Virus record (IMG/VR): IMGVR_UViG_3300009000_000013
Location: 1 to 41,348 of that record
Reading direction: 5' to 3' (one strand)
From: a virus
DNA length: 41,348 bases
Position numbers and translations under genes: made by a program. The notes beneath the pieces are model-generated. The model had not been told where the DNA came from. It worked only from the letters and a program-made list of their open reading frames with translations, and made no database searches. Position 1 is the stretch's first letter; each line of letters opens with the position of its first letter. Positions 8,345-41,267 of the stretch are shown here, piece by piece.

Positions 8345-8351
8345 TATTTAT
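8345..8351 (-). promoter_or_regulatory. Candidate late promoter overlapping the giant gene's stop codon
   Basis: The minus strand reads ATAAATA here (AATAAATA with 8352). The TAA stop of the giant gene (8348-8350) is contained in the motif. A start about 6 bases downstream gives a leader of about 13 bases carrying AGGA before the ATG of the 200-residue protein. Overlap with a stop codon makes chance occurrence possible. Confidence 0.45.
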
Positions 8352-14300: not shown

Positions 14301-17300
14301 CCTTGTTCGTCATCTAGCGGAACACTTACTGCTATCTTGTTTCCTTGAGGATTGATAGATACAGAATCTGCCCATTTATTAATGTCAATATATACGTCAG
14401 GTGTTTGAGCATCATTATCGTGATCACTTAAAATATAACTGCTTGATGGTGCTTTTATAATTTGAGAAAGTTCATATTTGTTATCTTTTAATTTATAAAT
14501 TGCAATAGCTGTTTCTAATGTACTATCTGACAATTGTTGTTTTGATCTAACAACTAAAGTTTCACCCTTGTCGTCTAAGGAAAATGTCGATGCAAATTGT
14601 TCTATATTTTCTATAGGATCGTAAGTTTCTTCTAATAATGCCTTGAAGCTAGTTAAATTTGGAAGATAACCTAAATAATCAATTCTATCGTCTGTTATAC
14701 TCCACGATGTATTTTCTTCAGAAGGTACACTTATTGAACTTGTAATGTTTGTGGTTGCTGTCCAAAATACAGACCCATAAAGAACAATATCTCCTAGTTT
14801 ATAACTAGCAGTACTGTCATATGTTCCTCTGTAATTAATATCTTTTCCTCTTTGCCAACTGATATTATTCCAGTAAATAGAATTTTTTATTTGATCTTCA
14901 TTTACTGTAGTATCTTTTAGTGCAATATAATAATTGTCTCTCCATTTAACAACATCGCCAATTGAATATGCTTTGTTTAATTGATACGAGCCTAAGAAGT
15001 TTTGATCTATAGTTGTCCCGTGATTATATATTTCAATAGCACCAGGATTTTTCCTCCATTCATACGGATCATTTCTAGCGTCTCCAGAAGGTTTATTAGA
15101 AATTAAAAGCTTATACAAGTTGTTTTGTTTTTTAATTTCTACTTTAGAACCAAAGTGCTTATCTTTTCCTGCATATTCTGAAACTAATGTAATTTGATAC
15201 TGATAAGATCCAGTAACGTCTTTTCTAAAAATGCTAACAGCACCTTGATTTAAGTACCCAGTTGTGCCTGTTTTTTCTGCAGGAATGTTATAAACCTGCT
15301 TAAAGTCTTTGTTTAGACTAGAAGGATAATTAGGTTCTCTATCAATACCTGTAATAATATCTTCATTAAAGAAATAATATTCTTGATCAATAATTGGAGT
15401 TACATTATCCCAAGTAAATGTTGTTGGAAAGTTTCTTCCGCTATCAATAACTAATAATTTTCCTATTAAACTTGTACCAATTGCAATATCATTGTTAGGA
15501 TTTAATACAGTACCTATAATTTGATCAGGATCACCGTTGCCTCTAAGACCTGGGTTCGACAAACGTCTTAATTCATATCTTCCGATGTTTGTTAATTGCT
15601 CCCAAGAACCTGAAGCAATATCTGGTCTTAATTTTACATATACTCTTACACTATTAAAGTTTCTTTGATAAAATACAACTTCCGCCGCACTTGTTGTAGT
15701 AGTAGTTAAAGCAAGGCCGCCTTGGCCGTCTCTAGGATATTGCACATCTACTAGCACATCTCCAATTTCTGGTTCAAAAACATTACCTTGGAAATCAAAT
15801 TCTGTAAAATCAAAATCAATAAATCCATCCCACATATCTTGAATAGTATGTGTACCTGTAATATCGTCAGTTGTAATGCCAGTCGGAGTAATATCATATG
15901 CTGAATTATCAAAAAACTTAATATTAATTTGATAACTAGGATTGTTTAAAAATCTTTGATAAATTATATCGGAATATGTTTTTGATATTCTTATTACAAA
16001 CCTCGAATCCGGTCTTGATAATTCTAAACCGTTGTTGTCGCCAGTAAACGAAAGATGATTTATAAAACTTGCTTGGTTCTTTCTTAAAACATACGGACCA
16101 ATTTCAGAAATTGTATCTTGAATATTATCATAGACATTTATTGGTTCATTATCAAGTATTTGCGCTGCTGTTCTAACATCAGAATAAACTAGTCCTCGAC
16201 CAACATCATAGTAAGCACGGTTGTTAGAATATGTAAACTCATCTCCAGAAAATAGTTCAGTTGTTTGTGGCTCAGGGTCGTTTCCAATATTATATGTCTT
16301 AAATAACCAATATCCTGATACTTCCTCTGACGTTGCATATGTATTTTCTTCGGTATAGAAGCCTACAAAATCTCCAAATGCAGTAAACAATTCACCGTTA
16401 ACTGTAAATACGCCGTTTCTATTTTTTAAGTAGAGTACCGCACTATCTCTATTAGTACCTACATAGTATACTTCAGCTGTCCCTGTGTCAGTCTGTATAA
16501 AGTCTCCTATATTAGGTAAAGTTACAAAAGTTTCTATAAAGAATATGTTATCAATTTTTTCTTGGATAATATGTTCTCTAGATAAAAAGTTTACAGACAG
16601 TTCTGATATTCTGTTATCAAAAGGAAAATAATCATCTAATGTTGGATATGCAAAACTTCTTTGATTCCAGTACAATGTAACTCCGTCGCCGGGTGCTGTT
16701 CCATTGTACATATCGCTAGGTGCTCTAATTAAAAAGTGATCTGTTACATTATTTTCTAAACCAGGATCTCCCGATACAAGTAGTGTTAAACTTGTACTAT
16801 CTGTATCTGCTTGATCTACTAAGTTAATATAAGAATCAAATGTACTAAAGGGCTGATCTTCAATTTTTGGTAATATTTCTCTGTTTGCTCTCCATAAACT
16901 TTCTTTATATCTAACTATATCACCTTTAACATAACTAGTGTCTGTATCAAAGTTTCCTTTAAATTTAGTTTTTACATAACTTGCATCTGGTGCACCGATT
17001 ACTAAATATTCGCCATCTTCGGAAACATCGATACTCTGTCCAAATTTTGAAAGTGCAGGATCATAGTAAAGTATAGCATCATCGGTTTGCTGTGTCCAGT
17101 TTTCTGCAACTTCTGCATCACTAAAAAACGTTCCACTAATGTGATTTCTTTTTGCTTTCCAGTATGTTCTAGTACTATCTAAATCATATACAACTATATC
17201 GTTTGTATTATATCTAGTATTTTCAGTCCACACTTCAATAAAGTCAGGTGGCAAAATTGTTTGATCAATTTTTAAATCCCAAGACTCGTTTGTTCTTCTA

Positions 17301-20300
17301 TAGTAATCAACTTTACCATTAAGCTCTGAATCAGAACTAACAAACAAATTTCTATTGTCAGCGGTAACTGCTATACTGTTTGAATAGTTTTGTAGTATAC
17401 CTTCAAAACTTTCTATATTTTGTATTTCTTGTCTTTTTGCATATATTGGTGAATTTTCTATAACTTTCCAATCGTTATTAGAATAGTTTTCAATCCAAAA
17501 TCTTTGATTTGGATATAGTTTTTGCTGTGCTAGAGTATTTGCTTCTGATATATCATTAACTTTTACAGAACGTAATTTAGATACCGTAAATTTTTGATTT
17601 ACAAATGTATCGGGTAGATCATCTTCAGGTACATAAACTGTAACGCTGTTTAGATTTATACTTTTAACAATGTATAATCCTGTAAGATTATATTCTTCAG
17701 CATTTTTAATTCCAATAATATCTCCTTCTTGAATAAACGGAGACGCCCATCTATCAAGAGTAATCTTATATGTAACTTTACCATCTTGTGCAACTAAATT
17801 ATCTTCGGATAAGTCTAATGCATACGCATCTGCGTGTATATGTTGAAATACATTCCAAGGCTTAACTCCTGATTCAGTGATCCATATATAATCTCCAAGT
17901 CCTAAAAGATTTACATTACCATTTGGTAATTCGTCTTCCGAACTTGCTACAAATGTCACATCTTCTTCTCTTACAAATCCGCCTGATTTTATATATTCTT
18001 CTGTAACAACCTTTGTCGGGAAAGGTTTATGATTATAGTCTACAGGTTTATCATAAACTTCGTAGGGCAAAATTCTATAGTGCTTATCAAAATTAGAATT
18101 AGGAATTACATTAACTAATTCTATTGCCTGCGGTGACTCTAAAAGTTTATCTTCTTTTAGATTAAACTCGACTTGTTTTTTATTATCAACAGCGCCATAT
18201 CTTCCAACTTGCAGAGCCCATTCTTCATAAAACTCCAAAGTATTCTCACCGGCACTACCTAAAGATCCAAACAGTTTAGTTAAAGCATTTTTTGTACCTT
18301 TGTCTTGTATAAATCCTTGATAGAATTTATACTGACTTACATCATCAGGTATAATATTTGACAAATATTGTCTTTTCTGGAAACCAGTAAGATGTTTTGC
18401 CATTCTTTGTAATTCGCTATCAAAACCTTGCGTATCTAAACTATAAAAATCATTAAATTGATTAATTCTATAATCAAAGTTTGTTAGCAATTCAGATTCA
18501 GGTTTTTCACTTAATCTATACCATTTACTACTATCAAATTTAGAAGCACCTGATACATTGGCAACTGCTACATAATAATATTGTTTATATTTTATAAGAT
18601 TACCAATTTTATAATCTTTCCATTTTTCCCAATCTACTACTGTTGCGTCATCAAATATAAAGCCCGGTATGTTTAATCCTCCATTCCAGTCAGCTGCTTT
18701 ATATCCTGAAATTCTAATTCTTTCTTGTCTATAACCAGTTGAAGGTTGGAATACAATATCATTAAAAACCGTTTTATTGTCAATTAAAACAACGTGTTCT
18801 TTTTGTACAAGCGGCAACGATGCACTATACAATCCTTCTGCTGTATTTTCTGTTTGTATTCCAAAACTGTTTTGATTTCTTAGTAAGCTACTAAATTCAC
18901 TTGACAAAGGTTCGCCGTTTGCTTGTAAGATAGAGTAAGGATAAAACTCATCATTAATATTATCAACTACATAATAGTCTTTCTGGAAGTTAAATTTGTT
19001 TGCAGCAGGTGATAATGTTATCACTGTGCCTGCGGCCCAACCTTGTGTAGTCCAGAACAAAAATTCTCTAGCAATTTGGTCCCAGTTATTAACTGATCCA
19101 TCTTCTTCTACAAAGTTAAAATCAAATCCAATTTTTTGTAACTGTTTTCCGTAACCTAATAAAAAGTCTACTACTTCTTGAGAAGTTCTTAGTGTTGTTC
19201 CGTATGCTAAACTTTGAGCAACTGTCTCAAAGTTGCTTTTAAACAATGCTGTTTTGCCGCCGACTGTAGGCAACTCAGGTAGTTTAACTAAGTTTTCTAA
19301 ACTAAATGTTTCTTTAGATGTATGAGTTTTTATTACTCTATAATAATCATTTATATATTCTACTACTGTATCTTTTACATAGTATTTTCTACCTTGCCAT
19401 TCTGAAGAATCTTCAGAAATTCCGCCAACAGTGACCGGAACTGCTTTACTACCAGAGAGTGGCATAAGATAATTAAAAAATGGATTTTCGTTATTATACC
19501 CTCTTATAGTGTATCCTGAAGCAGTTTTCTCAACAACTACGCCACTATATACTGCTACATCTAAAGGAGAACTAGTATTAAAGAATATTTTATAGTTTTC
19601 TTGAGGAATATATATTCCTCCCTCTTCTAGCTGTTGTTGAGGACTTCTGCTATCAAGAATTAAATTTAATTTTTTAGTATCGCTAAAACTACCTAATTTA
19701 AAACCAAGTTGGTTTGTTATACTAGTAACTTCGTTTTGGTAGTCGTTGTAAACTGTCAGTATATCACTTGCAACTAAATTATAAATGTAATTTACAAGGC
19801 CAGCAGTTAGTACTCTTTCATTATCTGCATATGTATTAGGAAACACAATACTATCAAGTGTAATATTCTTGTTTGTTACAGAATATACTTTTTGATTTGC
19901 TAAGTTAGTTGATATTCTTGATACATCAAATGCTTCGCCGATTATTTTTGAAGGTTTGTTTACTATCATACTTAATAGCACTGCAAACGGATAATCAGAA
20001 CTTCTACGCCACGCTGTTTCTACAGGAGCTTCGTCACCGAAAGTAAAATTACCTGTTGATTGGCGCAAAACAAATTGTTTTACATATCCACTTTCTTGTG
20101 GATGTTTAAGTTTGCCTTGAGAATCAACTGGTATCCAAGAAGTGATTCCTGGTCTTGCATAATCAGCATTATACCTTATATTTCCTGGCTCAGCAATTTT
20201 TCCTTCTTGGATATCTCTCCATAGAATTAAATTGTCACTTGTGTACGGAGCAGGTCCGTATACTTCATTCCACCATTTTGGTTTTATTTTGAAACCTAAT

Positions 20301-23300
20301 ATTTCCCAAGGATTGCTGTGCGGACGATCAGTATCAAATGCACGTTTGTATATGCCTCTCCAGAAACCAGGCAGTGGTTGAGAAGTTGGGCTTAATGCTT
20401 GTGAGTAATTAAACGTAAAAGGATTAAGTCTATCATAGAAAAAATTATCTGTATAATCATTATCAACTAGTGTAAGCCATTTTGTAAAACTAGACAACAA
20501 ACTACGATCTACTTCTTGCTTTGTAAATTCGCCGTCTCTCCAGTCGCCGCCGATAAATTTATCTACATTAATAATATTTGTGTCATAATTTACTTTAATA
20601 TTATTAAAAATTCTCTTTTCAAAATCTAAAAGTAATTCGTCTCTGTAATCAAGATACGCACGAATATAACTACCGTCGTGACCTTTAATAAATGCAACAC
20701 CTATTGGATATGCATCAATTTCTACATTATCGGTGCCGCCGTGAGTTCCTCCGGTGCCTGGCATATATAAATTAATATTCAATCCGTTAAAGGTGTGTGT
20801 ATGGTATGTTCCTGTGCCTCCAGCATCTATATCAGCAGTTGTTGCTGATTCTTTTGTAGTGTATAAAGGATAAAACCATCCTCTAATATTAGTAGCACTA
20901 TCTTCACCGTAAATTTTATAAGGACCATCATCAGTAGGTTGATCTGTTTGGTAAGTATCATCTATAACTAGTTCAGGTTCGTACTTGGGATACAATCCTA
21001 ATTTTGTTGGGGTTGGTGCAATATAACTTCCGTCAGATGTATTATATTCATAAATTTCAATAATGTCATTTTCAATTTGATTTGCACTAATATCAACATA
21101 CCCATCTGATCTAAATGTGTAATCTTTGCCGTTAACTAGTTGCTTTTTATTAAGATAAACATTTACACATTTAGCTGATATTTTTTCTAAAGTAAATGCG
21201 GTGCTAAGAGGATATTGAGTTATTCTCGAATCTAAAACTTTATATTCTATTCTATTATTTGGTCCGTATGAAAGCATATCGGAAAAATAAAAGGGTTGAG
21301 ATTTAATTTTATCTTTATTAATTACTTCTAAAACTTTATCAACGTGTTGTTTTGTTTCTCCGTCAAAACCTAAAGACTCAGCTGTTTCAAGAAATACTCT
21401 TTTAAACTTATTATATTCTTTGTTTGCATAAGATACAGATTTTATTAGATTGTATTTTTTATTAGTAATATGATACAATGACAAGTTTAACGGACTTGCG
21501 TGTTTTACAAATCTTTTACCGTATTTGTCTGTATCGCCTAGATCTCTAAGATTTCCAAGTCCAGGATATACTCCCTTAAACCCTGGTGCTTCTTCAATCA
21601 TACTATTAACGTGATCAATAACCTCTCCTAGAGTAAATTCATTTATATCTTCGTTAAGAGGATTTCTTTCTAAGTTAATAGGAAGTTCATAATATCCGTT
21701 ATTATTTTTTGTTTGTTTACTAAATGCTTTAATTACAACAGAATCGTTTTCTTGTAAAGGTGTATAAAAGTTTACAAATGCTTTCTGGTTAATTCTTGTG
21801 ATTTCGTAATCTGTATTTTTTACACTTAGTTTATTGTTAACATACACTACAACTTTTAAATCGTTTAAGTCGCCTGCGCGGTCAAATACATCAATAGGAA
21901 AATCATTATTTAAATCAATATTAGCAATGTATTGTCTTATAACATACTGCTTACTTTGTATAGGATTATTTGTCCAACCATTTACATATGTAAAATCTGT
22001 TATAGTTTTATATTTTCTTAAAAAAGCTGTATCAGTTTTAACACTAACTAAATCTTCGCCGTCTTGTACACTAAAAGTATCATTCAACAAATTAAATTCA
22101 AAAACAATATCTCCAGAATTTTCAATTGTTTTATACGACAACGGAAACCCAAGTTCAACGTCATTAGAACCTTCACCTACTTTATAAGAAAATATCTTTG
22201 TTCCTTTAAATGTTGAGGAAGAAAATACATCTAGGTCTGCGTATTCATTTCCTTGCGGGCAACAAAGATCAAACAACGGAGGCTGATTTCTAGTTGTTTT
22301 TTCTTGTGCTTCTATCCAGACATTTTTATGGTAGTGAAATGTTTTGCCGCCGAACTTTTTACCTTGTGTAACAAATATTGTTTCTAAATCTAAAGGATTT
22401 GTATCCTCAGTTTCTACTAAATTAATTTGTCTATTATTATTAATTGTAACAAATCTAACTTTATAAATTTTACCAGAAACTAAACTATCAGTATCAGATG
22501 CAAATAATACACGCATACCTTCAGCTAAATCTATGCCGTCAATATTATAACCTAACTTTCCTTCAATAGTCGAAAATACATCTTTTGTAAAAGTATCTAT
22601 TAAGTCGATATCAGTTTTTGCTTCGGCTCCATAATTAAATAATTTTAATCCTGCTTCAAACTCAATAATTGGACGTCTTGCTCTAAAATTTTCGTCTATG
22701 TCTACAGACAAATTATTATATTCGTAACTCTTTACCAAAACATCTCTATGAAACCACTTGTTATAACGACTCCAGGGATTTTTGTCTTGACTTGCACGAT
22801 TAATTATAATATAATCTTTTTCAGCCGCATATGCACTTGCATTTGCAAATGGCAAACTATCAAATTTGTCACTATCAAATGGTATTAATTTATTTTCACT
22901 ATATGACGCAGGAATTATTAGATCTTTTTCATTTATAAGAACAATTTTATCTCCAACACCTTCTACATACCAAAGATCTTGCTCATACTTTTTAGGCAAT
23001 ACGTCACCTTGGAATTCTACTTTCATACCATTTGATAGTGCAACACCATTTGCACTTGTATAAGTTTTCTTTCCTAAAATATCTTCTTCAACATTTAAAA
23101 AAGTGTTTTCTTCAATGTCATATACTCTAATAACACCGCTTGTATCTACATTATTTTTACTAATATAGTATAGTCTATCAGGTGCATTTGTAGGTATTGT
23201 AAATTCAATTGTACCTTGTTCAATGTATGCAACTGCAACTTCTTCACCTTCTTCACCTATTTTTCTAATTCCATCAGGATAAAGTGTAGATACGTTTTCA

Positions 23301-24121
23301 TCGTCCTCAAATGTTACACTGCCACTGCTAGGTAAAACAATAAATTCGCCTACATCATAACTGATACCGTTTGCATCAAACAGTGTTGCATCATAAAGAC
23401 CACTATCACGAAGTCCAGCAGACCCTGCTGTAATAATAGAAGAGCCTGGAGTAAAACTTCTAGTTATAGCAATAGCCATAGGATGGCCAGGTGCATCAAT
23501 TTCAAATCTATAAGTTTGTCCTCTATATAATTTTAGTGTCGGATTACGTGTAAGTCCATCATTAAATACATAAGCAACATTGTCACCTTGGTCTTCTACT
23601 GTAACTGTATAAGTGCTTATAACTTCTTTGCTTTGACCTCTTACCGGAACACTTAACGGACCATTAGGGGCCCAGTAGTATTCTCTGAAATTTGTAAATT
23701 TATCCCAATCAATATTTGGGTTCCAAGCATAGTATTCGCTGTTGTTTAATCTACTGTGATTTTCTGTATTACTTTGGAAATAATTTAATGTTCCTATATA
23801 ATCATTATAGTCTTTGTAAAAAGTTACATTGTCTAAATTGTCCTTTATTACAGTAGCCGGTTCAAGCTGATAGTTTTCTCTATCAGATGTTACATCCCCA
23901 ATATAGTTGTCAGTTGATTTAAAAGATTTTGCAGTTTTTCTTCCTACATAACCGTTAATTCTTTCTGCCACACCTGGCTGAATTAACTGATCTATTGTTC
24001 CTTGGAGGAATTTTTTGTTAGCCTCAGTTCTAAAAAACTTAGGAATAAAGTCAGAAGCTGTTCGCTTTTCATTACCATTAGTTGGTAACGGGCTTTCGTT
24101 TTGATTATCATTGTAAGCCAT
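8348..24121 (-). CDS. Giant 5257-aa baseplate/tail structural protein (gp7 position)
   Basis: One uninterrupted frame of 5257 codons follows gp6, sharing one base with its stop (TAATG), so translation is probably coupled. T4 has wedge gene 7 here (about 1030 residues). The N-terminus contains WDKFTNFREYYWAPNGPLS, a cupredoxin-like region (about 190-335, GHPMAIAITRSF) and FHYHKNVWIEAQ near 594. Carbohydrate-binding-like repeats with the pattern YxxGDxVxYxxxxYxA lie near 1575, 1830, 2293, 2389, 3041 and 3095. FG-GAP-like blades (e.g. SIDVSEDGEYLVIGAP) lie near 2240, 2356 and 3174-3445. KRYGVQNRPRQSMFVNRVEA is near 3700. Glycine repeats with GSGYT/GNGYT lie near 3844 and 4211. At least seven VNG-type repeats fill about 4307-5257, and the chain ends SIGRFLRAGTSELPE. 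No transmembrane segment is evident. I infer an elongated gp7-like wedge or side-fibre protein; the detailed role is unknown. Confidence 0.8.
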   Translation of the reverse strand: MAYNDNQNESPLPTNGNEKRTASDFIPKFFRTEANKKFLQGTIDQLIQPGVAERINGYVGRKTAKSFKSTDNYIGDVTSDRENYQLEPATVIKDNLDNVTFYKDYNDYIGTLNYFQSNTENHSRLNNSEYYAWNPNIDWDKFTNFREYYWAPNGPLSVPVRGQSKEVISTYTVTVEDQGDNVAYVFNDGLTRNPTLKLYRGQTYRFEIDAPGHPMAIAITRSFTPGSSIITAGSAGLRDSGLYDATLFDANGISYDVGEFIVLPSSGSVTFEDDENVSTLYPDGIRKIGEEGEEVAVAYIEQGTIEFTIPTNAPDRLYYISKNNVDTSGVIRVYDIEENTFLNVEEDILGKKTYTSANGVALSNGMKVEFQGDVLPKKYEQDLWYVEGVGDKIVLINEKDLIIPASYSENKLIPFDSDKFDSLPFANASAYAAEKDYIIINRASQDKNPWSRYNKWFHRDVLVKSYEYNNLSVDIDENFRARRPIIEFEAGLKLFNYGAEAKTDIDLIDTFTKDVFSTIEGKLGYNIDGIDLAEGMRVLFASDTDSLVSGKIYKVRFVTINNNRQINLVETEDTNPLDLETIFVTQGKKFGGKTFHYHKNVWIEAQEKTTRNQPPLFDLCCPQGNEYADLDVFSSSTFKGTKIFSYKVGEGSNDVELGFPLSYKTIENSGDIVFEFNLLNDTFSVQDGEDLVSVKTDTAFLRKYKTITDFTYVNGWTNNPIQSKQYVIRQYIANIDLNNDFPIDVFDRAGDLNDLKVVVYVNNKLSVKNTDYEITRINQKAFVNFYTPLQENDSVVIKAFSKQTKNNNGYYELPINLERNPLNEDINEFTLGEVIDHVNSMIEEAPGFKGVYPGLGNLRDLGDTDKYGKRFVKHASPLNLSLYHITNKKYNLIKSVSYANKEYNKFKRVFLETAESLGFDGETKQHVDKVLEVINKDKIKSQPFYFSDMLSYGPNNRIEYKVLDSRITQYPLSTAFTLEKISAKCVNVYLNKKQLVNGKDYTFRSDGYVDISANQIENDIIEIYEYNTSDGSYIAPTPTKLGLYPKYEPELVIDDTYQTDQPTDDGPYKIYGEDSATNIRGWFYPLYTTKESATTADIDAGGTGTYHTHTFNGLNINLYMPGTGGTHGGTDNVEIDAYPIGVAFIKGHDGSYIRAYLDYRDELLLDFEKRIFNNIKVNYDTNIINVDKFIGGDWRDGEFTKQEVDRSLLSSFTKWLTLVDNDYTDNFFYDRLNPFTFNYSQALSPTSQPLPGFWRGIYKRAFDTDRPHSNPWEILGFKIKPKWWNEVYGPAPYTSDNLILWRDIQEGKIAEPGNIRYNADYARPGITSWIPVDSQGKLKHPQESGYVKQFVLRQSTGNFTFGDEAPVETAWRRSSDYPFAVLLSMIVNKPSKIIGEAFDVSRISTNLANQKVYSVTNKNITLDSIVFPNTYADNERVLTAGLVNYIYNLVASDILTVYNDYQNEVTSITNQLGFKLGSFSDTKKLNLILDSRSPQQQLEEGGIYIPQENYKIFFNTSSPLDVAVYSGVVVEKTASGYTIRGYNNENPFFNYLMPLSGSKAVPVTVGGISEDSSEWQGRKYYVKDTVVEYINDYYRVIKTHTSKETFSLENLVKLPELPTVGGKTALFKSNFETVAQSLAYGTTLRTSQEVVDFLLGYGKQLQKIGFDFNFVEEDGSVNNWDQIAREFLFWTTQGWAAGTVITLSPAANKFNFQKDYYVVDNINDEFYPYSILQANGEPLSSEFSSLLRNQNSFGIQTENTAEGLYSASLPLVQKEHVVLIDNKTVFNDIVFQPSTGYRQERIRISGYKAADWNGGLNIPGFIFDDATVVDWEKWKDYKIGNLIKYKQYYYVAVANVSGASKFDSSKWYRLSEKPESELLTNFDYRINQFNDFYSLDTQGFDSELQRMAKHLTGFQKRQYLSNIIPDDVSQYKFYQGFIQDKGTKNALTKLFGSLGSAGENTLEFYEEWALQVGRYGAVDNKKQVEFNLKEDKLLESPQAIELVNVIPNSNFDKHYRILPYEVYDKPVDYNHKPFPTKVVTEEYIKSGGFVREEDVTFVASSEDELPNGNVNLLGLGDYIWITESGVKPWNVFQHIHADAYALDLSEDNLVAQDGKVTYKITLDRWASPFIQEGDIIGIKNAEEYNLTGLYIVKSINLNSVTVYVPEDDLPDTFVNQKFTVSKLRSVKVNDISEANTLAQQKLYPNQRFWIENYSNNDWKVIENSPIYAKRQEIQNIESFEGILQNYSNSIAVTADNRNLFVSSDSELNGKVDYYRRTNESWDLKIDQTILPPDFIEVWTENTRYNTNDIVVYDLDSTRTYWKAKRNHISGTFFSDAEVAENWTQQTDDAILYYDPALSKFGQSIDVSEDGEYLVIGAPDASYVKTKFKGNFDTDTSYVKGDIVRYKESLWRANREILPKIEDQPFSTFDSYINLVDQADTDSTSLTLLVSGDPGLENNVTDHFLIRAPSDMYNGTAPGDGVTLYWNQRSFAYPTLDDYFPFDNRISELSVNFLSREHIIQEKIDNIFFIETFVTLPNIGDFIQTDTGTAEVYYVGTNRDSAVLYLKNRNGVFTVNGELFTAFGDFVGFYTEENTYATSEEVSGYWLFKTYNIGNDPEPQTTELFSGDEFTYSNNRAYYDVGRGLVYSDVRTAAQILDNEPINVYDNIQDTISEIGPYVLRKNQASFINHLSFTGDNNGLELSRPDSRFVIRISKTYSDIIYQRFLNNPSYQINIKFFDNSAYDITPTGITTDDITGTHTIQDMWDGFIDFDFTEFDFQGNVFEPEIGDVLVDVQYPRDGQGGLALTTTTTSAAEVVFYQRNFNSVRVYVKLRPDIASGSWEQLTNIGRYELRRLSNPGLRGNGDPDQIIGTVLNPNNDIAIGTSLIGKLLVIDSGRNFPTTFTWDNVTPIIDQEYYFFNEDIITGIDREPNYPSSLNKDFKQVYNIPAEKTGTTGYLNQGAVSIFRKDVTGSYQYQITLVSEYAGKDKHFGSKVEIKKQNNLYKLLISNKPSGDARNDPYEWRKNPGAIEIYNHGTTIDQNFLGSYQLNKAYSIGDVVKWRDNYYIALKDTTVNEDQIKNSIYWNNISWQRGKDINYRGTYDSTASYKLGDIVLYGSVFWTATTNITSSISVPSEENTSWSITDDRIDYLGYLPNLTSFKALLEETYDPIENIEQFASTFSLDDKGETLVVRSKQQLSDSTLETAIAIYKLKDNKYELSQIIKAPSSSYILSDHDNDAQTPDVYIDINKWADSVSINPQGNKIAVSVPLDDEQGFNKGSVWVYEYNYTNQKFGTVDGEITQPNIKLYSPNNEEVEGFGNSLAYGKDSLVVSSINGDVSIPTRFDTFEEALENSYVLDTTSETRTETTFDSKFTSFKNSKIDKGNIYIFENLQNNLLFSERLIYENAEIEFGRNLLIEDNHIYVGLPNQTSGNKRGAVLDYRKPKNKISYNEIRSSVVPVDVSKIEGAFLYNKRTNEIVSYIDYIDPLQGKIAGIAEQEITYKLPLDPATYNVGDLADKNVNPKTYWSKTYVGQVWWNVSTARFSYPYQGSTSFQKGEWNKLLAGSSIDVYEWVESDYLPSQWNQLADTDNGVALGISGRAIYGDNKYSARLSYDDISQTFTTKYYFWVQNKTTIPQIENRNLNIQTIANLIARPRQEGYRFISFLSEDKFVLNNFDSLVTSDDLVLNIRYSDGKNQDQNEHRQYQILSDKLATSKPNKDIERKWFDSLIGVDDNGRVVPDATIPVAKRYGVQNRPRQSMFVNRVEALKQAVERINFVLSKNIIVDEKNISELLRKEEIPTFITNRFDFEIDTFEELEFISTNKVTQAKIRPIIVNGKIIRLVIEDSGRGYKVPPSYQIEGDGTGASFKLTINNLGQVTNAEILTQGSGYTESTIINVRRVSVLIKSDNTAFNNWAIYAYDNTQRMWIRTAIQSYDVTKFWDYVDWYADGYNQFSNIDFSVDNSYQLAGVNDSIGDIVKINNVGSGGWLLLEKISNENTEDYTINYNTIGRQDGTIAFKDNLYNFIKNTIGYDNRSYDSTFYDNNPTKELRIILETIRDDIFVGDLEVEYNQLFLASLRYILSEQPRVDWMFKTSFISAKHKLGELEQDITFQYNNLEDFEEYVREVKPFSTNIREYVDNYEKIDNTRSSVTDFDLSPYYDTSLGRIDASITTIVDNNLVGEEDNTLVYPRKHWRDNLGYQIKEIKISNAGQDYTFVPTVKIVGGGGAGATAKAVLGYGKVTDIIVTNPGNGYTSKPDIIIEGSQGDNGVVAKATAILGNGKVRSPHIRVKFDRLSGEFTYETIAKQTLHTGTNFDTNFELPYPMDLNNTKVQVFVNGIEQLRSKYTYENFEDTSKSYTRERGRIIFANPPALGALIEIKYQLPLSMLGAEDRILHSYNPFVDMYGKDLTQLMKGIDYGGIEVRSYDFAGISGWDTRGWYTDQWDAFDNTFEDEIFTADQSTIAVQLSAPLENGVVYNVYRRLASNDEPNPNPFVRLDDPNFGTAEPVTNTSAIMQSITGDGVTDIVRLDELNVALLDGDTLIIRKTTSDGSILPDTNSYDTQLSGGDLAYNTATGINAEDIITDGDGFISEAAMAGPEELVPGQIFDTLDIKVYTRESGGQGKIFSQNYRLDTSVLTYELGITPGTTASVFVKLNNEILELDTDYTINWKDNTLTLNTNNANFVSNASLNIVCLAQATQNVLDFEEFTGDGSTTAFETNVKFQEGLSVYASVNGVKQTVEISESISQNTTVIFETSPEDNTLVYIAIFDNDTQVNYSQLKKDSFVGDDNTTDFTLSSGPFYSKPSQYNLIVKVGNNILSPGYNIQYTIPANSQREYLLEVFQQPSGSLLTEDIVVFLNGVRITVEALQWRFDISNSSVVLADDIGQPGDTLEIFVITDGEYTLSGPATVRLNNAPQDGTLVDIYQFSNHDILEIERLNYDVVSRVTLAADNVDYDTYQRLTVGEVQLRKPAIDAKYVWVIKNGTLLSGDIDYYITDDKTKVMLKDYPEQNDVLDIIHFSAETNVSKFAFRQFKDILNRTHFKRLDAATTALATDLNEYDLRIEVVDGTELSEPNKGQNLPGIIFVNGERIEYFVKEGNTLRQLRRGTLGTGIKTVHSAGTKVYDQNISKTIPYRDNTIVKNYIADGVTAEFTVDHPTGSINELEIFVAGTRMNKNYRKDYLPVHELDSPEGDYEIDPDVQFDITSQSIILKRVPVEGSRVTIIKKQGKIWNEGVKSLGESENSIGRFLRAGTSELPE

Positions 24122-27100
24122 TAGTAACTATTTCCTCCGCTATTAGTTATGAGTCCGCCAGTAGTTGATGTTGTAGTAGAACTGCTAGATGCACTAGTAA
24201 TTCCATTTGTTATAGTTGTCGAAACACTAGTAATAACATCACCTGATGCTTGTAGTTCTGTTGCTGTTAATTCGTCAATTATTTCAATGTCGCTCACTTT
24301 TGCACCACTAATAAAAATTTCTTCTAATTCTGATTTAATCTCAAAAAGACTTCCGAAACTTTGGTTACCTTGACGGGGAACAATAATAATACTTAAAAGT
24401 TTTGGACTTAATGTATTCATAATATATGCACTAAGCTCTTGGAAGTAAAATGTTTCGCCAAAGTCCCAATTTTCTATTTCAAAAAATGTATCAATAGCAG
24501 AAATAATATCTGATTTTAGTTCATTTTCGTTTACAACTAAATTTCTATTTCTAACAATTTTAAATTTAACTTGCAAGTTTGTATCTGCCTTTTCGCCAAA
24601 CAATACTTTATACTTAACTGGATGATAAACTACTTCGTCGCTTATTGACTTAATTGCAGTTATACTGTCTCCGTATGCCCTAGTTAAAACATCGTTGCTA
24701 GGCGGCGTCGGTTTTACAGAAGTTTGTCCTGAAATATATTTTCGCATTTCAGTATCATAATTTTTTGTTAGCAAATATGTGTCTATAATATTACTTGCAC
24801 TTGGATCAATTCTATAGTTACTATCAGCAACGTGTACATAATGGAACTTTAATCCACTTCTTCCAGTAAATGCTTTGTAATTAGAATTAAGTGTAGTATT
24901 TCCAGCTGCCTTGTTTAAAGTTTTAAATACCTTTTCTTCTAACAAGTAAAAAATCTGTCCTTCGTTATGAGAATTATAAGCGCCAATACTGTTTTCATTG
25001 TTTACTATTTTAATTTCTAAGTTAGTATTATCAAAAAACTTATAATCTTCTACACCGTCAGTTGTAGTATATTTCTTTTGGAATATAATCTTCTTTGATA
25101 TATTAACAAAATCATTATTTTCGTCAACAATAACATTAAAAATATCTAAATCATCTGCTGTTCCGTCGTCGTCTAAATCAAAAAATTCAACCTGTATTTT
25201 TCTAGTATCAGTATATCCTTCGCCGTCTCTATAAGCATCATTAATAGACCAAAGAAAATCTCTCGAATAAGAAGAATTACTTGACTGCTGTTTATTAATA
25301 CTTAAAACTTTGATTTGGTCTCTAAATATTTTTCCTGAAGTTGGATCATAAATCTTATCTGCATTATCAAAAAAGAATCTTATTTCGTCAGCACTTTCAA
25401 ATACATATCTTTGATTTCTATTAGTAATAGTATATGTTTCGCCATTAGTTTTAAAATATAACAACCAACTTGAATCTAAATTTTCACCGGAAATGTCTCC
25501 TGACTTTCCTAATGAAAATCCGTTAATAGTATTAATGTCTTCTGCAAGGATTAATTTCCAATCTCTTTCTTCTGTATCGTATCTAAGAGCAAAATCTTTA
25601 TATGCAAAAGTTTGATCAATTATTTGTACCTTTAAATCATTTGAAAATGTTTTTGAAAATACTGGAACAATTTCAATTATTTTACTACCTTCATTTATAG
25701 TATCTGAAAGAACAATGTCTCCGACATTGTTTTCATCAAAACTATTTCCTTCATTAGTAACGCTAACAACTTTTGTCCAACGATACGTTGATGCTCCGAG
25801 CTCAGTATCTAAAGTAGTTAATGTTCCGTTTGGCAAGAAGAATTGCGGAGTACCATTAGCAGTAGTTGGAGGTGCAAATTTAATCATTGCGCCTGGTTCT
25901 AAAAATCTTAAATTATTTGTAACAAAAGATCCTACTTTAAATGTTTGGTTACTGTCAAGTTCTCCTACAAGTATTCCAGAATTTTGATTTGTACTTTGAT
26001 AATAATTTTTCCAGACAGCTGATAAATCGCTTGTAGACTTTCTTGGATATTGTCCGTTATAGAAATTACGTAAGTTCGTAGATTGTATTATGCCTTCTAC
26101 TGTATTATATATAACACCCTCAATATCACTTTGCGTAACAAATTTAAAATCAGTATTTGTTTCAAATGTATCTCTATAAATTACACCATCATCTGCAAAC
26201 AAACTAGTGTTGCTGTATTTTCCTGTTGCGTCTTTAAGATCAAAATAACGGCTTATACCACTAGAGATTCTATTAACACTTTTTGTTTTAATAATATCTT
26301 GACTAATTGCTAACGGTCCAACATTATAATCTTCTGCTGTAATTAATCTGTTTTGTGTATAATAAGTTGCTGGAGCATTTTGTTTTATACTTGTATTTGT
26401 TTCAGTAGCTGATCCGTTTGATACTGTATAATTTAATCTTAGTCCAAGTGTAAGTTTTTCTAAGTTTCCGTTTCTACCTTGATAAGGAATTTCTATGTTA
26501 ACATTACCGATAGAATTTGGAGTAACAATCATATTTGCATTAGCACTTGTTCTATAGAAAACTTTAAAATTACCTGCAGGTAAGTTTCCAAAAACTCCAT
26601 CACTAAAAACTAAATTTATTCTGTCGCCTACTCTAGTTACAACTGAAAATATATTTCTTATTCCTGAAAAAAGGCTATTGTAAATTACGTTATTACCTTC
26701 TACATTATCTAATTTAGTCCAACCTTGTGTTTCAAAGCCGTTAGAATCAATGTTATATAACCATACATCGTCATTGTTAATATTTTCTGCATCTACTGCA
26801 ATAATTTGATTAGGCACTGGATTGTTTACAGCAAAATTACCTGTTTCTAGTTTACCTTGACGGAAGTGCATAAAAAACCCAGTATTGATACTAGAAGCAC
26901 CTTGACCGTCGTCGCGAAAAAGTAAAGCAGGACTTGTTCCTGGTAGAGGAGGTTCTTCTACAATTTTTGAACCTTGAATATCTGTACTTACAACTTCAAA
27001 TCGTGTACTTACTCCTTCAATATTTTTAGAGAAAGGAAAAATAGCACTGTCTGTATTAGTAGATTGTAATCTATATTTTTGTGTTTGTACACCGTCAATA

Positions 27101-27633
27101 TTCTGAGATTTCAAAGGATTACCAATTGAATTTTGTACAGGTAATGCAGCATTTAATATTTTAATAAATTGTTCAAAATAACCTGTGTTACTTTGATCAT
27201 TCCATTTAATAACTCGACCTGCAAGCTGTGAGCCTGCGCTATCTTTTAAATTTTCAGTTGTTTTTACTGTAGCAATTTTTAACAATCCGTTTGCTGCTTG
27301 ATTTCTGCGTGGATTGTATGACAACATACGTGCTAAACGAAGAATTGATTCTCTACGTTCTGCTGTTTCAAGGAAATTTTCTCTAGCATTTAGATCAACA
27401 CGGAATGATAAGTTTTGCCCAAGGAATGCAATCATATCAATTAGTGCAAGGTATTCGCTAGACTCGATATAGTCGTTAAAATCTTCTGGATAGTTTTGAC
27501 GCAGATAATTAATCATTGTTCTGCGTAAATTATCAAAATCATAGCTTTGGAAGTCTGCATTCCTAAAACTTTGATATATTCTTTTCCAGTCTTCAGTTAC
27601 TAATAACCTTGATTGTCTGTCGCTTGTAGACAT
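24121..27633 (-). CDS. gp6: Baseplate wedge protein gp6
   Basis: The first 120 residues are typical of gp6 of marine T4-like phages: DWKRIYQSFRNADFQSYDFD, LRQNYPEDFNDYIESSEYLA, then NARENFLETAERRESILRLA and MLSYNPRRNQAANGLLKI. T4 gp6 forms the heart-shaped dimer that joins wedges into the baseplate ring. This protein has 1170 residues against about 660 in T4, so it is much enlarged, mostly in the middle. The region around residues 1040-1110 (VKFKIVRNRNLVVNENELKS ... WDFGETFYFQELSAYIMNTL) matches the J-like core shared by baseplate J/gp6 proteins. The last 40 residues are almost only Ser, Thr and Gly. It follows gp25 after a 60-base gap carrying a candidate late promoter and has an AAGGAA ribosome site before its ATG. 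Confidence 0.9.
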   Translation of the reverse strand: MSTSDRQSRLLVTEDWKRIYQSFRNADFQSYDFDNLRRTMINYLRQNYPEDFNDYIESSEYLALIDMIAFLGQNLSFRVDLNARENFLETAERRESILRLARMLSYNPRRNQAANGLLKIATVKTTENLKDSAGSQLAGRVIKWNDQSNTGYFEQFIKILNAALPVQNSIGNPLKSQNIDGVQTQKYRLQSTNTDSAIFPFSKNIEGVSTRFEVVSTDIQGSKIVEEPPLPGTSPALLFRDDGQGASSINTGFFMHFRQGKLETGNFAVNNPVPNQIIAVDAENINNDDVWLYNIDSNGFETQGWTKLDNVEGNNVIYNSLFSGIRNIFSVVTRVGDRINLVFSDGVFGNLPAGNFKVFYRTSANANMIVTPNSIGNVNIEIPYQGRNGNLEKLTLGLRLNYTVSNGSATETNTSIKQNAPATYYTQNRLITAEDYNVGPLAISQDIIKTKSVNRISSGISRYFDLKDATGKYSNTSLFADDGVIYRDTFETNTDFKFVTQSDIEGVIYNTVEGIIQSTNLRNFYNGQYPRKSTSDLSAVWKNYYQSTNQNSGILVGELDSNQTFKVGSFVTNNLRFLEPGAMIKFAPPTTANGTPQFFLPNGTLTTLDTELGASTYRWTKVVSVTNEGNSFDENNVGDIVLSDTINEGSKIIEIVPVFSKTFSNDLKVQIIDQTFAYKDFALRYDTEERDWKLILAEDINTINGFSLGKSGDISGENLDSSWLLYFKTNGETYTITNRNQRYVFESADEIRFFFDNADKIYDPTSGKIFRDQIKVLSINKQQSSNSSYSRDFLWSINDAYRDGEGYTDTRKIQVEFFDLDDDGTADDLDIFNVIVDENNDFVNISKKIIFQKKYTTTDGVEDYKFFDNTNLEIKIVNNENSIGAYNSHNEGQIFYLLEEKVFKTLNKAAGNTTLNSNYKAFTGRSGLKFHYVHVADSNYRIDPSASNIIDTYLLTKNYDTEMRKYISGQTSVKPTPPSNDVLTRAYGDSITAIKSISDEVVYHPVKYKVLFGEKADTNLQVKFKIVRNRNLVVNENELKSDIISAIDTFFEIENWDFGETFYFQELSAYIMNTLSPKLLSIIIVPRQGNQSFGSLFEIKSELEEIFISGAKVSDIEIIDELTATELQASGDVITSVSTTITNGITSASSSSTTTSTTGGLITNSGGNSY

Positions 27634-27659: not shown

Positions 27660-27666
27660 TATTTAT
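27660..27666 (-). promoter_or_regulatory. Candidate late promoter for gp6
   Basis: The minus strand reads GATAAATATT around this site, within the 60-base gap between gp25 and gp6. The expected start about 6 bases downstream gives a 21-base leader with an AAGGAA ribosome site. This is the best-placed late promoter inside the structural block and would start transcription of gp6 and the giant gene. Confidence 0.55.
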
Positions 27667-27693
27667 CTGATCTGAAAAAGTGCGTATTTAATT

Positions 27694-35540: not shown

Positions 35541-35840
35541 TTACTTTCCTAAAATAGCCGACAAGTTTGATCCCTGAGGCAAATATATCTTTGTGCCAGC
35601 AACAAAGTCAAAGACAGGATCTTTAATTATATCAGGATTGCGTTGAGCAAAAATCCACCAAAGATCTTTTTTTCCGTATAAATCGTGTGCTAGTAAATCT
35701 GGTCTATAATTATAAGCTGGAATTATTTCGTATAATACGTCATTACCTGCAACAGGTACAGGACGAGGTACAAATATATCTAAATACCCTGCGGTATTAA
35801 CCGGAGTTTTTCCGTATGGTCCGTTTCCTTTACCTTTCAT
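35541..35840 (-). CDS. gp53: Baseplate wedge protein gp53
   Basis: This 99-residue protein carries the gp53 core: YEIIPAYNYRPDLLAHDLYG, KKDLWWIFAQRNPDIIKDPV, then AGTKIYLPQG, a LysM-like arrangement. T4 gp53 (about 196 residues) clamps neighbouring wedges together in the baseplate; this version keeps only the central region. Its start overlaps the stop of the gp48-like gene by one base, and the hub-like gene begins one base after its stop codon. The T4 gene order 53-5 is kept, with two genes inserted between them. Confidence 0.85.
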   Translation of the reverse strand: MKGKGNGPYGKTPVNTAGYLDIFVPRPVPVAGNDVLYEIIPAYNYRPDLLAHDLYGKKDLWWIFAQRNPDIIKDPVFDFVAGTKIYLPQGSNLSAILGK

Positions 35841-36820
35841 TATACAAATCCTTCGTCTTGACCAATGTGTCTGCCTGATGCATAATCAGTTAAACTAAAT
35901 CTTGCTTGAGATCTTCTAGCGTACTGTGGAGCAAGTGTTACTGTTATTGTTGCTTGAGCAGGAACATAGTTTTCTTTTCCGTCAACTACTGTTTTTATAT
36001 AATCTATATCCGCAGGAAGGTCAGTTGTAAAGTTTGTAATTAATACTGGAATATCATTAAGTACGTGAGGACCATAACCATTTAATCTACAGACAACGGG
36101 CGGCTGTCCTAATAATGCTTCTTGTCCGCTGTCTCCATAAAACATTTTAGTAGCCGTTCTTAAAAAATGTATACAGGCAATAAAATACTGTGCATCTTCA
36201 GTAGTTTCATTTAAGTATTCACCAGTAATTGTATAATTGTCAACCTGACTATTTTCATAAGCATTATAAGGAAAATTAGTATGTACTGGATGAACTTGAG
36301 AATAATTTGCACTATGTCCAATTAGCACTGTAGGAGTAAAAGGAAAAATCATTCTATTTCCTGTTCCAGCTAATGGACTTAAAATCTGACCAGCATTTGG
36401 ACCTGCTATAAATATTTCAGGAACACTTATACTTACTCTCCAATCGCTTGCATCTGCTGTCGAAATGTTTGCCGATAATACTGCACGAGATAGTTGGCGC
36501 GATCTTGGAGCAGCATTGTATCCTACTCCTTGAGAAGCATTTCCTATCATTCGTATTGCACTACCTACATTTGCTAAACTATTGCCTCGATTAATTAAGT
36601 TATCTACAGCACCAACTGTGTTTCTTAACGACCCTGCAATTGTTGACACTTGTGAAAGTGTGCCTGTTAATCCGCCAGAGGTATCAAAATTTCTAATAGT
36701 GCTTGCAGCACGATTTATGTTCGAACTAACGTTATTAATAGTGTTAGACACAGAACGTATATTGCTAAAAGCATTATTCACTTTTGTACTAAGATTGTTA
36801 AAGGCACTAAAAATACTCAT
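35840..36820 (-). CDS. Tail-tube cap / baseplate protein of gp48-gp54 type
   Basis: Residues 1-110 form a Ser/Asn-rich, probably helical region (LSTKVNNAFSNIRSVSNTIN). Residues about 130-310 form a compact domain with VHPVHTNFPYNAYENSQVDN, YTITGEYLNETTEDAQYFIA and LRTATKMFYG, which I associate with tube-cap proteins gp48/gp54 of marine T4-like phages and, more broadly, with the tail-tube fold. The length (326) fits T4 gp54 (320) and gp48 (364). It is the first gene of the minus-strand block. A CTAAATA motif lies 20 bases upstream, and GGAG lies 10 bases before the ATG. Which of gp48 or gp54 it replaces cannot be decided here. Confidence 0.6.
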   Translation of the reverse strand: MSIFSAFNNLSTKVNNAFSNIRSVSNTINNVSSNINRAASTIRNFDTSGGLTGTLSQVSTIAGSLRNTVGAVDNLINRGNSLANVGSAIRMIGNASQGVGYNAAPRSRQLSRAVLSANISTADASDWRVSISVPEIFIAGPNAGQILSPLAGTGNRMIFPFTPTVLIGHSANYSQVHPVHTNFPYNAYENSQVDNYTITGEYLNETTEDAQYFIACIHFLRTATKMFYGDSGQEALLGQPPVVCRLNGYGPHVLNDIPVLITNFTTDLPADIDYIKTVVDGKENYVPAQATITVTLAPQYARRSQARFSLTDYASGRHIGQDEGFV

Positions 36821-36839
36821 AATACGGTTTCTCCATTAG

Positions 36840-36846
36840 TATTTAG
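36840..36846 (-). promoter_or_regulatory. Candidate late promoter of the structural block
   Basis: The minus strand reads CTAAATA, a variant of the T4-type late -10 box. It lies 20 bases before the first structural gene. A start 6 bases downstream gives a short leader with GGAG. The motif abuts the -35 box of the divergent gp55 promoter at 36847. Confidence 0.5.
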
Positions 36847-36875
36847 TTGACAAACTTAACAGAGTATATTATAAT
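36847..36875 (+). promoter_or_regulatory. Consensus sigma-70 promoter of gp55
   Basis: TTGACA at 36847-36852 is followed by 17 bases and TATAAT at 36870-36875, a perfect host housekeeping promoter. Transcription would start near 36882, leaving a leader of about 17 bases with GGAG at 36889-36892, six bases before the gp55 ATG. An overlapping ATAAATA (36874-36880) could also serve as a late promoter in the same direction. Confidence 0.85.
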
Positions 36876-36880
36876 AAATA
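36874..36880 (+). promoter_or_regulatory. Candidate late promoter motif overlapping the gp55 promoter
   Basis: The plus strand reads AATAAATA at 36873-36880, the same motif seen upstream of several structural genes on the other strand. It shares two bases with the sigma-70 -10 box. A start about 6 bases downstream would still leave the GGAG ribosome site in the leader. It could let gp55 drive its own gene late in infection, but in AT-rich DNA the motif may be accidental. Confidence 0.35.
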
Positions 36881-36898
36881 TAACAACTGGAGCAACAA

Positions 36899-37741
36899 AT
36901 GAGACCTAAAAATTACCTCAATAACAAAGACATTCTCAAAGAAATACATCGATCAAAAAATACATTCAATAGCTTTGTTGAAAAAGATTATGCAAACTAT
37001 GATATTATTTTAGAAAGCGTTGATAAAATTAACATTAGAACTATTGCAGAAGCAAAACGTAACAAAGCAAAAAAACTAAGCAGCGAAGAGTACGATAAAC
37101 GTAAAACAGCAGGTGAAAAAGTTAAACAAGCAGACTGCGAAATTGACTATAAAAGCATTACCAAAGAAGAATTAATTTTTCGAATTATGACGTTTGATCA
37201 TATTCCAGAAGAGCCAGGACGTAAAAAGAATCCTAAAACTATAGCAGATACAAAAGTAAAATTAAATTTTCCACCTTTTCAACACTATAAGTTTAACGAA
37301 GACGGTGAACTAATCTGTGTTGGCAAAAGTCATTGGCAAGGTGGTATGGAAAACGGATACTTTAGTATAACCCACGGAAAAGCTACAGACAAACTTGCAC
37401 TTATGTGGATGAAACTGTGTGATCGTTATGCTACAAGAGGAAATGTGAGAGGATACACCTACAATGACGAAATGCGAGGACAAGCGATACTGCAACTTGC
37501 TCAAATTGGTCTACAGTTTGATGAGTCTAAAAGTCAAAACCCCTTTGCTTACTACACAGCGGCAGTTACAAACTCATTTGTACGTGTTATCAACATTGAA
37601 AAACGCAATCAAAACATTAGAGACGACATCCTTGAAATGAATGACTTGTCTCCAAGTTATACAAGACAACACCAAGGCGAGTGGGAAGCAAGTGTTCGTA
37701 GAAACGAAGAAGCCGATATGAGTTCATTTTCTAAAAAATAA
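36899..37741 (+). CDS. gp55: Late-transcription sigma factor gp55
   Basis: The 280-residue protein is gp55-like. In T4, gp55 replaces host sigma on RNA polymerase, recognises TATAAATA late promoters and is activated by the sliding clamp. The conserved part lies in the C-terminal half: LALMWMKLCDRYATRGNVRG, MRGQAILQLAQIGLQFDESK, NPFAYYTAAVTNSFVRVINI, then EKRNQNIRDDILEM, a sigma region 2-like helix set. T4 gp55 has 185 residues; the additional N-terminal 100 residues are charged and seem to be an extension, with a KTAGEKVKQADCEIDYKSIT segment. The ATG at 36899 has GGAG six bases upstream and a consensus promoter before it. It sits divergent to the late genes it is expected to switch on. Confidence 0.88.
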   Translation: MRPKNYLNNKDILKEIHRSKNTFNSFVEKDYANYDIILESVDKINIRTIAEAKRNKAKKLSSEEYDKRKTAGEKVKQADCEIDYKSITKEELIFRIMTFDHIPEEPGRKKNPKTIADTKVKLNFPPFQHYKFNEDGELICVGKSHWQGGMENGYFSITHGKATDKLALMWMKLCDRYATRGNVRGYTYNDEMRGQAILQLAQIGLQFDESKSQNPFAYYTAAVTNSFVRVINIEKRNQNIRDDILEMNDLSPSYTRQHQGEWEASVRRNEEADMSSFSKK

Positions 37742-37743
37742 GG

Positions 37744-37772
37744 TTGACAACTGTATAATTACATAGTATACT
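37744..37772 (+). promoter_or_regulatory. Sigma-70 promoter of gp47-gp46
   Basis: TTGACA at 37744-37749 and TATACT at 37767-37772 are separated by 17 bases, in the 58-base gap after gp55. This would start a separate early/middle transcript for gp47, gp46 and the following small genes. A TATAAT at 37754 is too close to the -35 box to be used with it. Confidence 0.8.
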
Positions 37773-40817: not shown

Positions 40818-41267
40818 ATGCAGTGGACTTACCAAGGACAAACAATTGACACTATACCAGAAGAGTATGAAGGCTTTGTTTATCTTATTACCAATCTTAC
40901 CACTGGGCAAAAATACGTAGGCAAAAAACTAGCAAAGTTTAAAACAACTAAGCCACCACTCAAAGGCAAAAAAAATAAACGTAGAGGCTACAAAGAAAGC
41001 GATTGGAAAGACTATTGGGGTTCATCTGATAGACTTAATGCTGATGTTGAAGCACTAGGCCCAGAAAATTTCATAAGAGAGATATTATATCTTTGCAAAG
41101 GCAGAGGCGAAATGTCTTACATCGAGGCAAGAGAGCAATTTGACCGCCGTGTATTAGAGAGCGACGAGTATTACAATGGAATTATTAATGTTAGAGTTGG
41201 CGGTTCCGACAAATTGCGACAGGCATTGCTAGAACATAGCATCAAGGCAAAACAATCCAACACTTAA
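40818..41267 (+). CDS. GIY-YIG family endonuclease, free-standing (Seg/homing type)
   Basis: The 149-residue protein has a GIY-YIG nuclease core: GFVYLITN at 19-26 (GIY variant) and KYVGKK at 32-37 (YIG variant). A basic stretch follows (KKNKRRGYK), then DWKDYWGSS at 62-70, LGPENFIREILYLC at 80-93, and a likely catalytic glutamate among EMSYIEAREQ (98-107). T4 carries several free-standing enzymes of this family (SegA-G) that bias inheritance at their own locus; this one may be mobile in the same way or a domesticated phage nuclease. No separate DNA-binding domain is evident. The ribosome site before the ATG at 40818 is weak. A 12-bp direct repeat brackets the gene. Confidence 0.75.
   Translation: MQWTYQGQTIDTIPEEYEGFVYLITNLTTGQKYVGKKLAKFKTTKPPLKGKKNKRRGYKESDWKDYWGSSDRLNADVEALGPENFIREILYLCKGRGEMSYIEAREQFDRRVLESDEYYNGIINVRVGGSDKLRQALLEHSIKAKQSNT
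41245..41256 (+). repeat. 12-bp direct repeat, right copy
   Basis: Exact copy of AGGCAAAACAAT found at 40785-40796. It encodes part of the C-terminal KAKQS residues of the GIY-YIG protein, ending 11 bases before the end of the gene. Confidence 0.6.

Follow-up and report, generated by a model that had tools for sequence, protein, structure and literature searches.

Late transcription in phage T4 is the textbook case of a system in which a sliding clamp replaces the -35 element of the promoter. For T4 itself, late promoters are described without an upstream or -35 element, and the DsbA protein is reported to have low-affinity, A/T-rich sites that overlap two late promoters (PMC2988020). The gp33 protein contacts the upstream duplex DNA (PMC7892883). 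In phage Aeh1 the late box is CTAAATA, placed at -12 and spanning positions -12 to -6 (PMC1524935). Overlapping early and late promoters at one gene are described in RB49 and S-PM2 (PMC2984593), and in phi29 the divergent early promoters A2b/A2c and the late promoter A3 share a short common control region with the regulator p4 (PMC11476376). Finally, 35 occurrences of ATAAATA are described in the jumbo T4-like phage CBB, whose gp55 is preceded by an RpoD-like promoter (PMC5259590).

Here, we analysed a stretch of 41,348 nucleotides of viral DNA (hereafter the window; IMG/VR record IMGVR_UViG_3300009000_000013). The window derives from a T4-related phage and shows a block of baseplate wedge and other virion genes on the minus strand, standing head to head with gp55, gp47 and gp46 on the plus strand. 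The 78-base gap between the two blocks (36821-36898) holds all three motifs named in the original prediction for this locus. Upstream of gp55 we identified a host-type sigma70 promoter, TTGACA-N17-TATAAT (36847-36875, plus strand), which is the single exact TTGACA-N16..18-TATAAT in the window, against a mean of 0.10 in shuffled sequences. Its -35 hexamer lies at 36847-36852, and its -10 hexamer (36870-36875) gives a predicted start near 36882, at which A is favoured in 50 of 67 rows. The minus-strand late box CTAAATA (36846-36840) directly adjoins the -35 hexamer, and a plus-strand ATAAATA (36874-36880), in the same direction as gp55, overlaps the -10 hexamer by two bases.

The gene to the right of the gap was identified as a homologue of the late sigma factor gp55 (36899-37741, plus strand, 280 aa), with matches to phrog_12791 (E 1.2e-79) and to T4 gp55 (PDB 7d7c, E 5.4e-07); the cognate sigma factor of T4-type late promoters is encoded at this locus. 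The gp55 proteins of this group are approximately 95 residues longer than T4 gp55, and about 130 of their N-terminal residues, which are well conserved, are not covered by the match to the T4 protein. To the left, the divergent operon starts with a gene for a virion structural protein of 326 aa (35840-36820, minus strand), the start of which lies 19 bases from CTAAATA, followed by a baseplate wedge gp53-like gene (35541-35840, minus strand), both assigned by profile matches. Rfam and tRNA scans returned no match. Further into the virion block we noted a single ORF of 5257 aa (8348-24121, minus strand), and behind gp46 a SegE-like GIY-YIG homing endonuclease (40818-41267, plus strand). We additionally identified a further sigma70-like promoter immediately after gp55 (37744-37772, plus strand), which in the window precedes gp47, and which recurs at about equal distance in all eight contigs (elsewhere at G001 79285, G002 96784, G003 77431, G004 96505, G005 54040, G006 53225 and G008 72321), suggesting that gp47 and gp46 may have an early promoter of their own.

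We investigated the conservation of the gap among 80 relatives of gp55, at 77-90% identity. Three of these had too little upstream DNA, leaving 77 relatives whose DNA upstream of gp55 spans 100 bases or more, together with the window (n = 78). A bidirectional block of the form TATTTAG-TTGACA-spacer-TATAATA (36840-36876 in the window; TATTTAGTTGAC) was found upstream of gp55 in 77/78 sequences, the exception being the locus L045. Minus-strand CTAAATA was likewise found in 77/78 sequences and lies before the divergent virion operon, bearing out the proposal that a late motif faces the structural genes. Across the 68 distinct rows, mean pairwise identity is 0.84 within the block of approximately 37 bp, versus 0.39 and 0.37 in its flanks, and the third codon positions of gp55, at 0.51, are also below the value for the block. 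The conserved columns form two layers, of which one is the early promoter (TTGAC/TATAAT), and the other an equally strict TATTTA before the -35 hexamer, together with a patterned spacer. The rows were anchored on TTTAGTTGAC, so that its invariance among these rows follows from their selection, while the count of 77/78 is independent of the anchoring.

An independent scan of IMG/VR by DNA alone identified at least 120 stretches, with 115 readable loci. Among the matches listed, gp55 follows the block on the same strand in 111 of the 115 readable loci (tblastn), and the remaining four reach the contig end. On the opposite side, a divergent ORF with a Shine-Dalgarno-like site begins 12-31 bases from CTAAATA in all 114 distinct left sides of relatives, and encodes 241-351 aa where complete; the pattern behind this count requires four A/T after TTGAC, and so omits the window and other sequences with G or C at these positions, such as L002 and L003.

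Boxes of the T4 late type (TATAAATA-like; NTAAATA/CTAAATA) precede virion genes in the coding-strand orientation. In the window, the minus-strand genes starting at 36820, 27633, 8326 and 3601 each have HTAAATA 18-28 bases upstream. Within 60 bases of 466 ORF starts, taken from the window together with seven long relatives, TAAATA is found 118 times in the sense and 40 times in the antisense orientation, a bias as expected of a working late box. Across the window as a whole HTAAATA is depleted, with 27 occurrences versus a shuffle mean of 75.9 (sd 9.1). The sequence TATAAATA occurs once in the window versus 8.05 expected, and late boxes seem to have been purged from the sequence.

Some of the next-best matches of a matrix built from the block, when run over whole contigs, were sites before virion genes, and we therefore examined the promoters of gp6. 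The gp6-like baseplate wedge gene of the window (24121-27633, minus strand, 1170 aa, profile match) is preceded by the late box ATAAATA (27660-27666, minus strand). In 80/80 relatives NTAAATA stands before gp6, with AATTAARTACGCACTTWWY upstream of it at a spacing that is mostly constant (67 distinct rows); the corresponding element in the window is AATTAAATACGCACTTTTT (27675-27693, minus strand, score 24.4). We trained a matrix on gp6 promoters only (TACGCACTT-N11-NTAAATA), and moved it stepwise over the minus-strand sequence that precedes CTAAATA in the gp55 block. The 19-mer matrix scored best at exactly the gp6 register in 66/66 distinct rows, and the core 9-mer did so in 61/66. In the window, this places an upstream element of the virion-operon late promoter at 36855-36873 (minus strand), with its core 9-mer at 36858-36866 (TACTCTGTT; group consensus TACGYASTT), separated from CTAAATA by 11 bases, the same spacing as at gp6. 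The window's own element at the gp55 locus is weak, scoring 5.6 versus 24.4 at its gp6 site.

In eight contigs, a score of at least 3 at the element register was reached by 18/128 TAAATA sites before ORFs, versus 1/653 other TAAATA sites. These 18 sites are the gp6 promoters (8/8), the gp55 blocks (8/8) and two sites before a gene of 388/394 aa. The other 110 of the 128 promoter-placed sites score below 3, and most late promoters of the same contigs are thus without the element, in line with the description of T4 late promoters. A plain pattern count of the spacing between element and TAAATA gave six cases of N11, two of N13 and one of N6, with none at the other spacings from 6 to 18. Taken alone, without TAAATA, the element is not enriched genome-wide (68 real occurrences versus 56 in a Markov background). 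From the register of the gp6 matrix, the scores across contigs and the N11 mode, we conclude that the conserved spacer within the gp55 promoter and the upstream element of the opposite-strand late promoter are one and the same sequence. The original prediction had missed this element. The lack of conservation upstream or at -35 that marks T4-type late promoters does not extend to the gp6 and gp55 loci, which have an element in fixed register.

Two further recurrent features were noted in the group. The same element, of the GCGC/ACGT type, lies over or next to ATAAATA in a further divergent late region, flanked by a gene for a 290-aa baseplate-like protein and a large tail gene (G001 87279-87298, G002 91023-91042, G003 69714, G004 102149 and G006 45476). 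Separately, a common GAGCG-A-AGCGAAAAC stretch, followed by a small hairpin, precedes an ATAAATA/CTAAATA box upstream of a gene, and is possibly a terminator or an RNA element (G001 83998, G002 92744, G003 73405, G004 100498 and G005 58042).

We propose that the block acts as a bidirectional early/late promoter switch, a reading that we consider reasonably probable, and the architecture of which is well supported by the anatomy of the sequence. Rightward, host sigma70 polymerase would transcribe gp55 from the near-consensus promoter. In the leftward direction, gp55-polymerase would read, from the opposite strand of these base pairs, a bipartite late promoter, consisting of CTAAATA and the upstream element, the latter forming the spacer of the gp55 promoter and touching its -10 hexamer. 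If CTAAATA occupies -12 to -6, as reported for Aeh1, late transcription would start near 36834, and the element would lie at about -32 to -24. As gp55 accumulates, gp55-polymerase, helped by a putative additional protein or by its own contact at the element, would start the virion operon, and in doing so would cover the -35 hexamer, the spacer and the -10 hexamer of the gp55 promoter. Because the whole early promoter would be covered, late initiation would stop the early supply of gp55, which would amount to negative feedback, or a hand-over, and not to an autoactivating loop.

Polymerase footprints preclude the simultaneous occupancy of overlapping promoters, and by this reasoning the two promoters of the block could not both be occupied at once. 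The overlap had been suggested to make the two sides exclusive, and the arrangement found here agrees with that suggestion. Start-up of the late phase would thus probably shut the early start site of gp55 itself.

The element may be read by a separate protein, or by the approximately 130 N-terminal residues of the group's gp55. A structure prediction of gp55 was too poor to use (mean pLDDT 55.3), and a Pfam search of the protein returned nothing useful. T4-type gp33 profiles matched in 0/7 long contigs, possibly fragments (G001-G003 and G009-G012), and gp45 profiles gave a single, very weak partial match (E 0.006) in the same seven; the T4 positive controls for the two sets of profiles gave E-values of 1.6e-33 and 3.4e-86 respectively. 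The Pfam sliding-clamp family PF02916 had no match in eight contigs, its control being silent too.

A site in the spacer of a sigma70 promoter blocks sigma70 polymerase, and a dedicated phage regulator bound to the element might therefore activate the late promoter and repress the early promoter of gp55 at the same time. Such a regulator would sit well with the constant spacing between the element and TAAATA in two operons, and with a consensus that is in part palindromic (best axis, 0.54-0.55 complementary), and it has a precedent in p4 of phi29 (PMC11476376). The elements before gp6 and gp55 do not, however, covary between genomes (839/5000 shuffles were as high, over 39 distinct pairs), and a single shared binder found no support from this comparison. 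The half sites of the element similarly show no consistent covariation, and the case for a palindrome bound by a dimer is accordingly weak. As candidate regulators, DsbA-like proteins (phrog_639, E 2e-08 and 5e-07) were identified in 2/11 contigs, but were not found in the other nine, including two of 154 and 169 kb. In view of this distribution, and of the T4 DsbA sites that overlap late promoters (PMC2988020), we regard a DsbA-like DNA-binding partner of the late promoters as possible, and as a lead, not a finding. The small DsbA-like protein is encoded directly upstream of the DNA polymerase gene in both contigs (G010:C1:41535-41792, L399; G009:C1:31059-31316, L400). Overall, we consider a separate regulator of this kind unlikely.

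In the original prediction, gp55-polymerase would also use the plus-strand ATAAATA, and could thereby maintain the transcription of gp55 as well as open the structural block. The motif is present in the window and in 11/68 distinct sequences (and in 10/95 distinct rows among the DNA-scan matches listed), versus 0.5 expected from shuffled leaders and 3.3 from independent columns, indicating that it is over-represented, and overlapping early and late promoters have been described for RB49 and S-PM2 (PMC2984593). Nonetheless, it is missing in 57/68 distinct sequences. The 11 carriers lie scattered over a gp55 tree of 113 rows, and require 10 changes versus a shuffled mean of 10.7, indicating that the motif comes and goes; this tree does not include the window, uses a pattern with four A/T after TTGAC that omits, for example, L002 and L003, and had truncated and duplicate rows dropped. 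Plus-strand TAAATA is, moreover, absent from the gp55 gap of 7/7 named jumbo phages.

Thus, a conserved late box running in the same direction over the early promoter, as in the RB49 type, was not found at this locus. Conservation of the motif arrangement in related phages holds for the block with its CTAAATA, and does not hold for ATAAATA on the plus strand. Self-activation is ruled out as a conserved function by the minority of carriers, their scatter and the absence of the motif in the jumbo phages; a loop is optional at best, and as a general mechanism for this locus we regard it as quite improbable. ATAAATA may add late transcription of gp55 in this phage and in the scattered minority, as an optional add-on, and would there work against pure negative feedback.

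The early and late layers of the block are separable. Among 72 sigma70-like sites in eight contigs, TATTTA stands before the -35 hexamer of the eight gp55 promoters and of 0/64 others, ruling out TATTTAG as a UP-like part of early promoters. In L045 the -35 and -10 hexamers of the block are lost, with a promoter-like TTGACT...TATAAT downstream, while ATAAATA-N11-element is retained (score 7.8, best register). Phage Atu_ph07 similarly retains AATTAAATTAGTAGTT-N10-CTAAATA with no TATAAT in register (1/2000 shuffles was as good). Thus, the late half can be present where the early half is missing. AT-rich DNA before a -35 hexamer can stimulate promoters, and the gp55 promoter is near-consensus, but with TATTTA confined to gp55 among these sites, with gp6 promoters that have the element without an early promoter, and with late parts retained without early ones in L045 and Atu_ph07, it is most improbable that TATTTAG and the patterned spacer are only parts of a strong sigma70 promoter (a UP-like element and an optimised spacer), with no late promoter here. 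Two further loci, L054 and L079, carry a second TTGACA...TATAAT/TATACT-like promoter between the block and gp55, which may represent a step on the way to the relocated promoter of L045.

In this T4-related phage group, the start signal of the gp55 gene is interleaved with a signal that gp55 appears to use for tail genes. If the bidirectional switch is correct, the late promoter lying over the early promoter of the sigma gene predicts a simple and testable early-to-late hand-over, in a group that can be compared through more than 100 environmental sequences. A lineage with a conserved upstream element at its key late promoters, in which gp33 and the clamp are not convincingly detected, would represent another way to activate a gp55-type sigma factor. 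Going further, the group might possess gp55-type late promoters of a separate class, with a genuine recognition element at about -30, no convincingly detected gp33 or T4-like gp45, and reading by the N-terminal part of gp55 or by a dedicated activator. This class would serve two tail operons, and at gp55 would be interleaved base for base with the early promoter of the sigma gene, forming a self-extinguishing switch. We put this forward tentatively, as a possibility that we hold to be somewhat doubtful.

Literature searches, mostly without subscription papers, found neither an upstream element described for gp55-type late promoters nor an account of this bidirectional block. We compared the locus with seven named jumbo T4-like phages (PA5oct, 121Q, CBB, Atu_ph07, Phosso, Vibrio 2.275.O and SCTP-2). 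As in the window, gp55 in these phages stands head to head with a leftward run of genes, which includes virion genes where annotated, and minus-strand TATTTA is found in the gp55 gap in 7/7. The order virion genes, gp55, gp47, gp46 is found in PA5oct, 121Q, CBB and, partly by position, Vibrio phage 2.275.O. A nucleotidyltransferase-like gene comes first in the leftward run of Phosso and Atu_ph07, and the gp55 neighbours of SCTP-2 are unannotated. In contrast to the window, the whole fused block is found in 0/7 of these phages, and the late half with the element is clear in Atu_ph07 only, a convincing element at the gp55 locus being absent in 6/7. The gp25/gp6 promoters of PA5oct and Atu_ph07 show no clear element, and those of Phosso have a partial match at N9. 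The Atu_ph07-like element pattern gave scattered matches only across the seven phages, at the level of a backward control.

The locus shares with T4-type late promoters a gp55 homologue and an NTAAATA box before virion genes, and with Aeh1 the late box CTAAATA (PMC1524935). It differs from the T4 type in its conserved upstream element at fixed spacing, where T4 promoters are described without one (PMC2988020), and in that gp33 was not detected, and gp45 gave one very weak partial match, in the seven long contigs, possibly fragments. In T4, gene 55 moreover lies in a co-directional run, whereas here it is head to head with a late operon. RB49 and S-PM2 share the overlap of early and late motifs at one gene, which fits the plus-strand ATAAATA of the window; their overlap, however, runs in one direction and explains middle timing, whereas the conserved overlap here is between opposite strands. 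The likeness to phi29 lies in divergent early and late promoters overlapping one control site, as judged here from sequence anatomy and conservation. It ends at the dedicated regulator and the one host polymerase of phi29, since the sigma factor for the late promoter is here the product of the early gene. The proposed bidirectional early/late switch with its bipartite late promoter would be a variation on known late-promoter systems, of which the upstream element is the new result.
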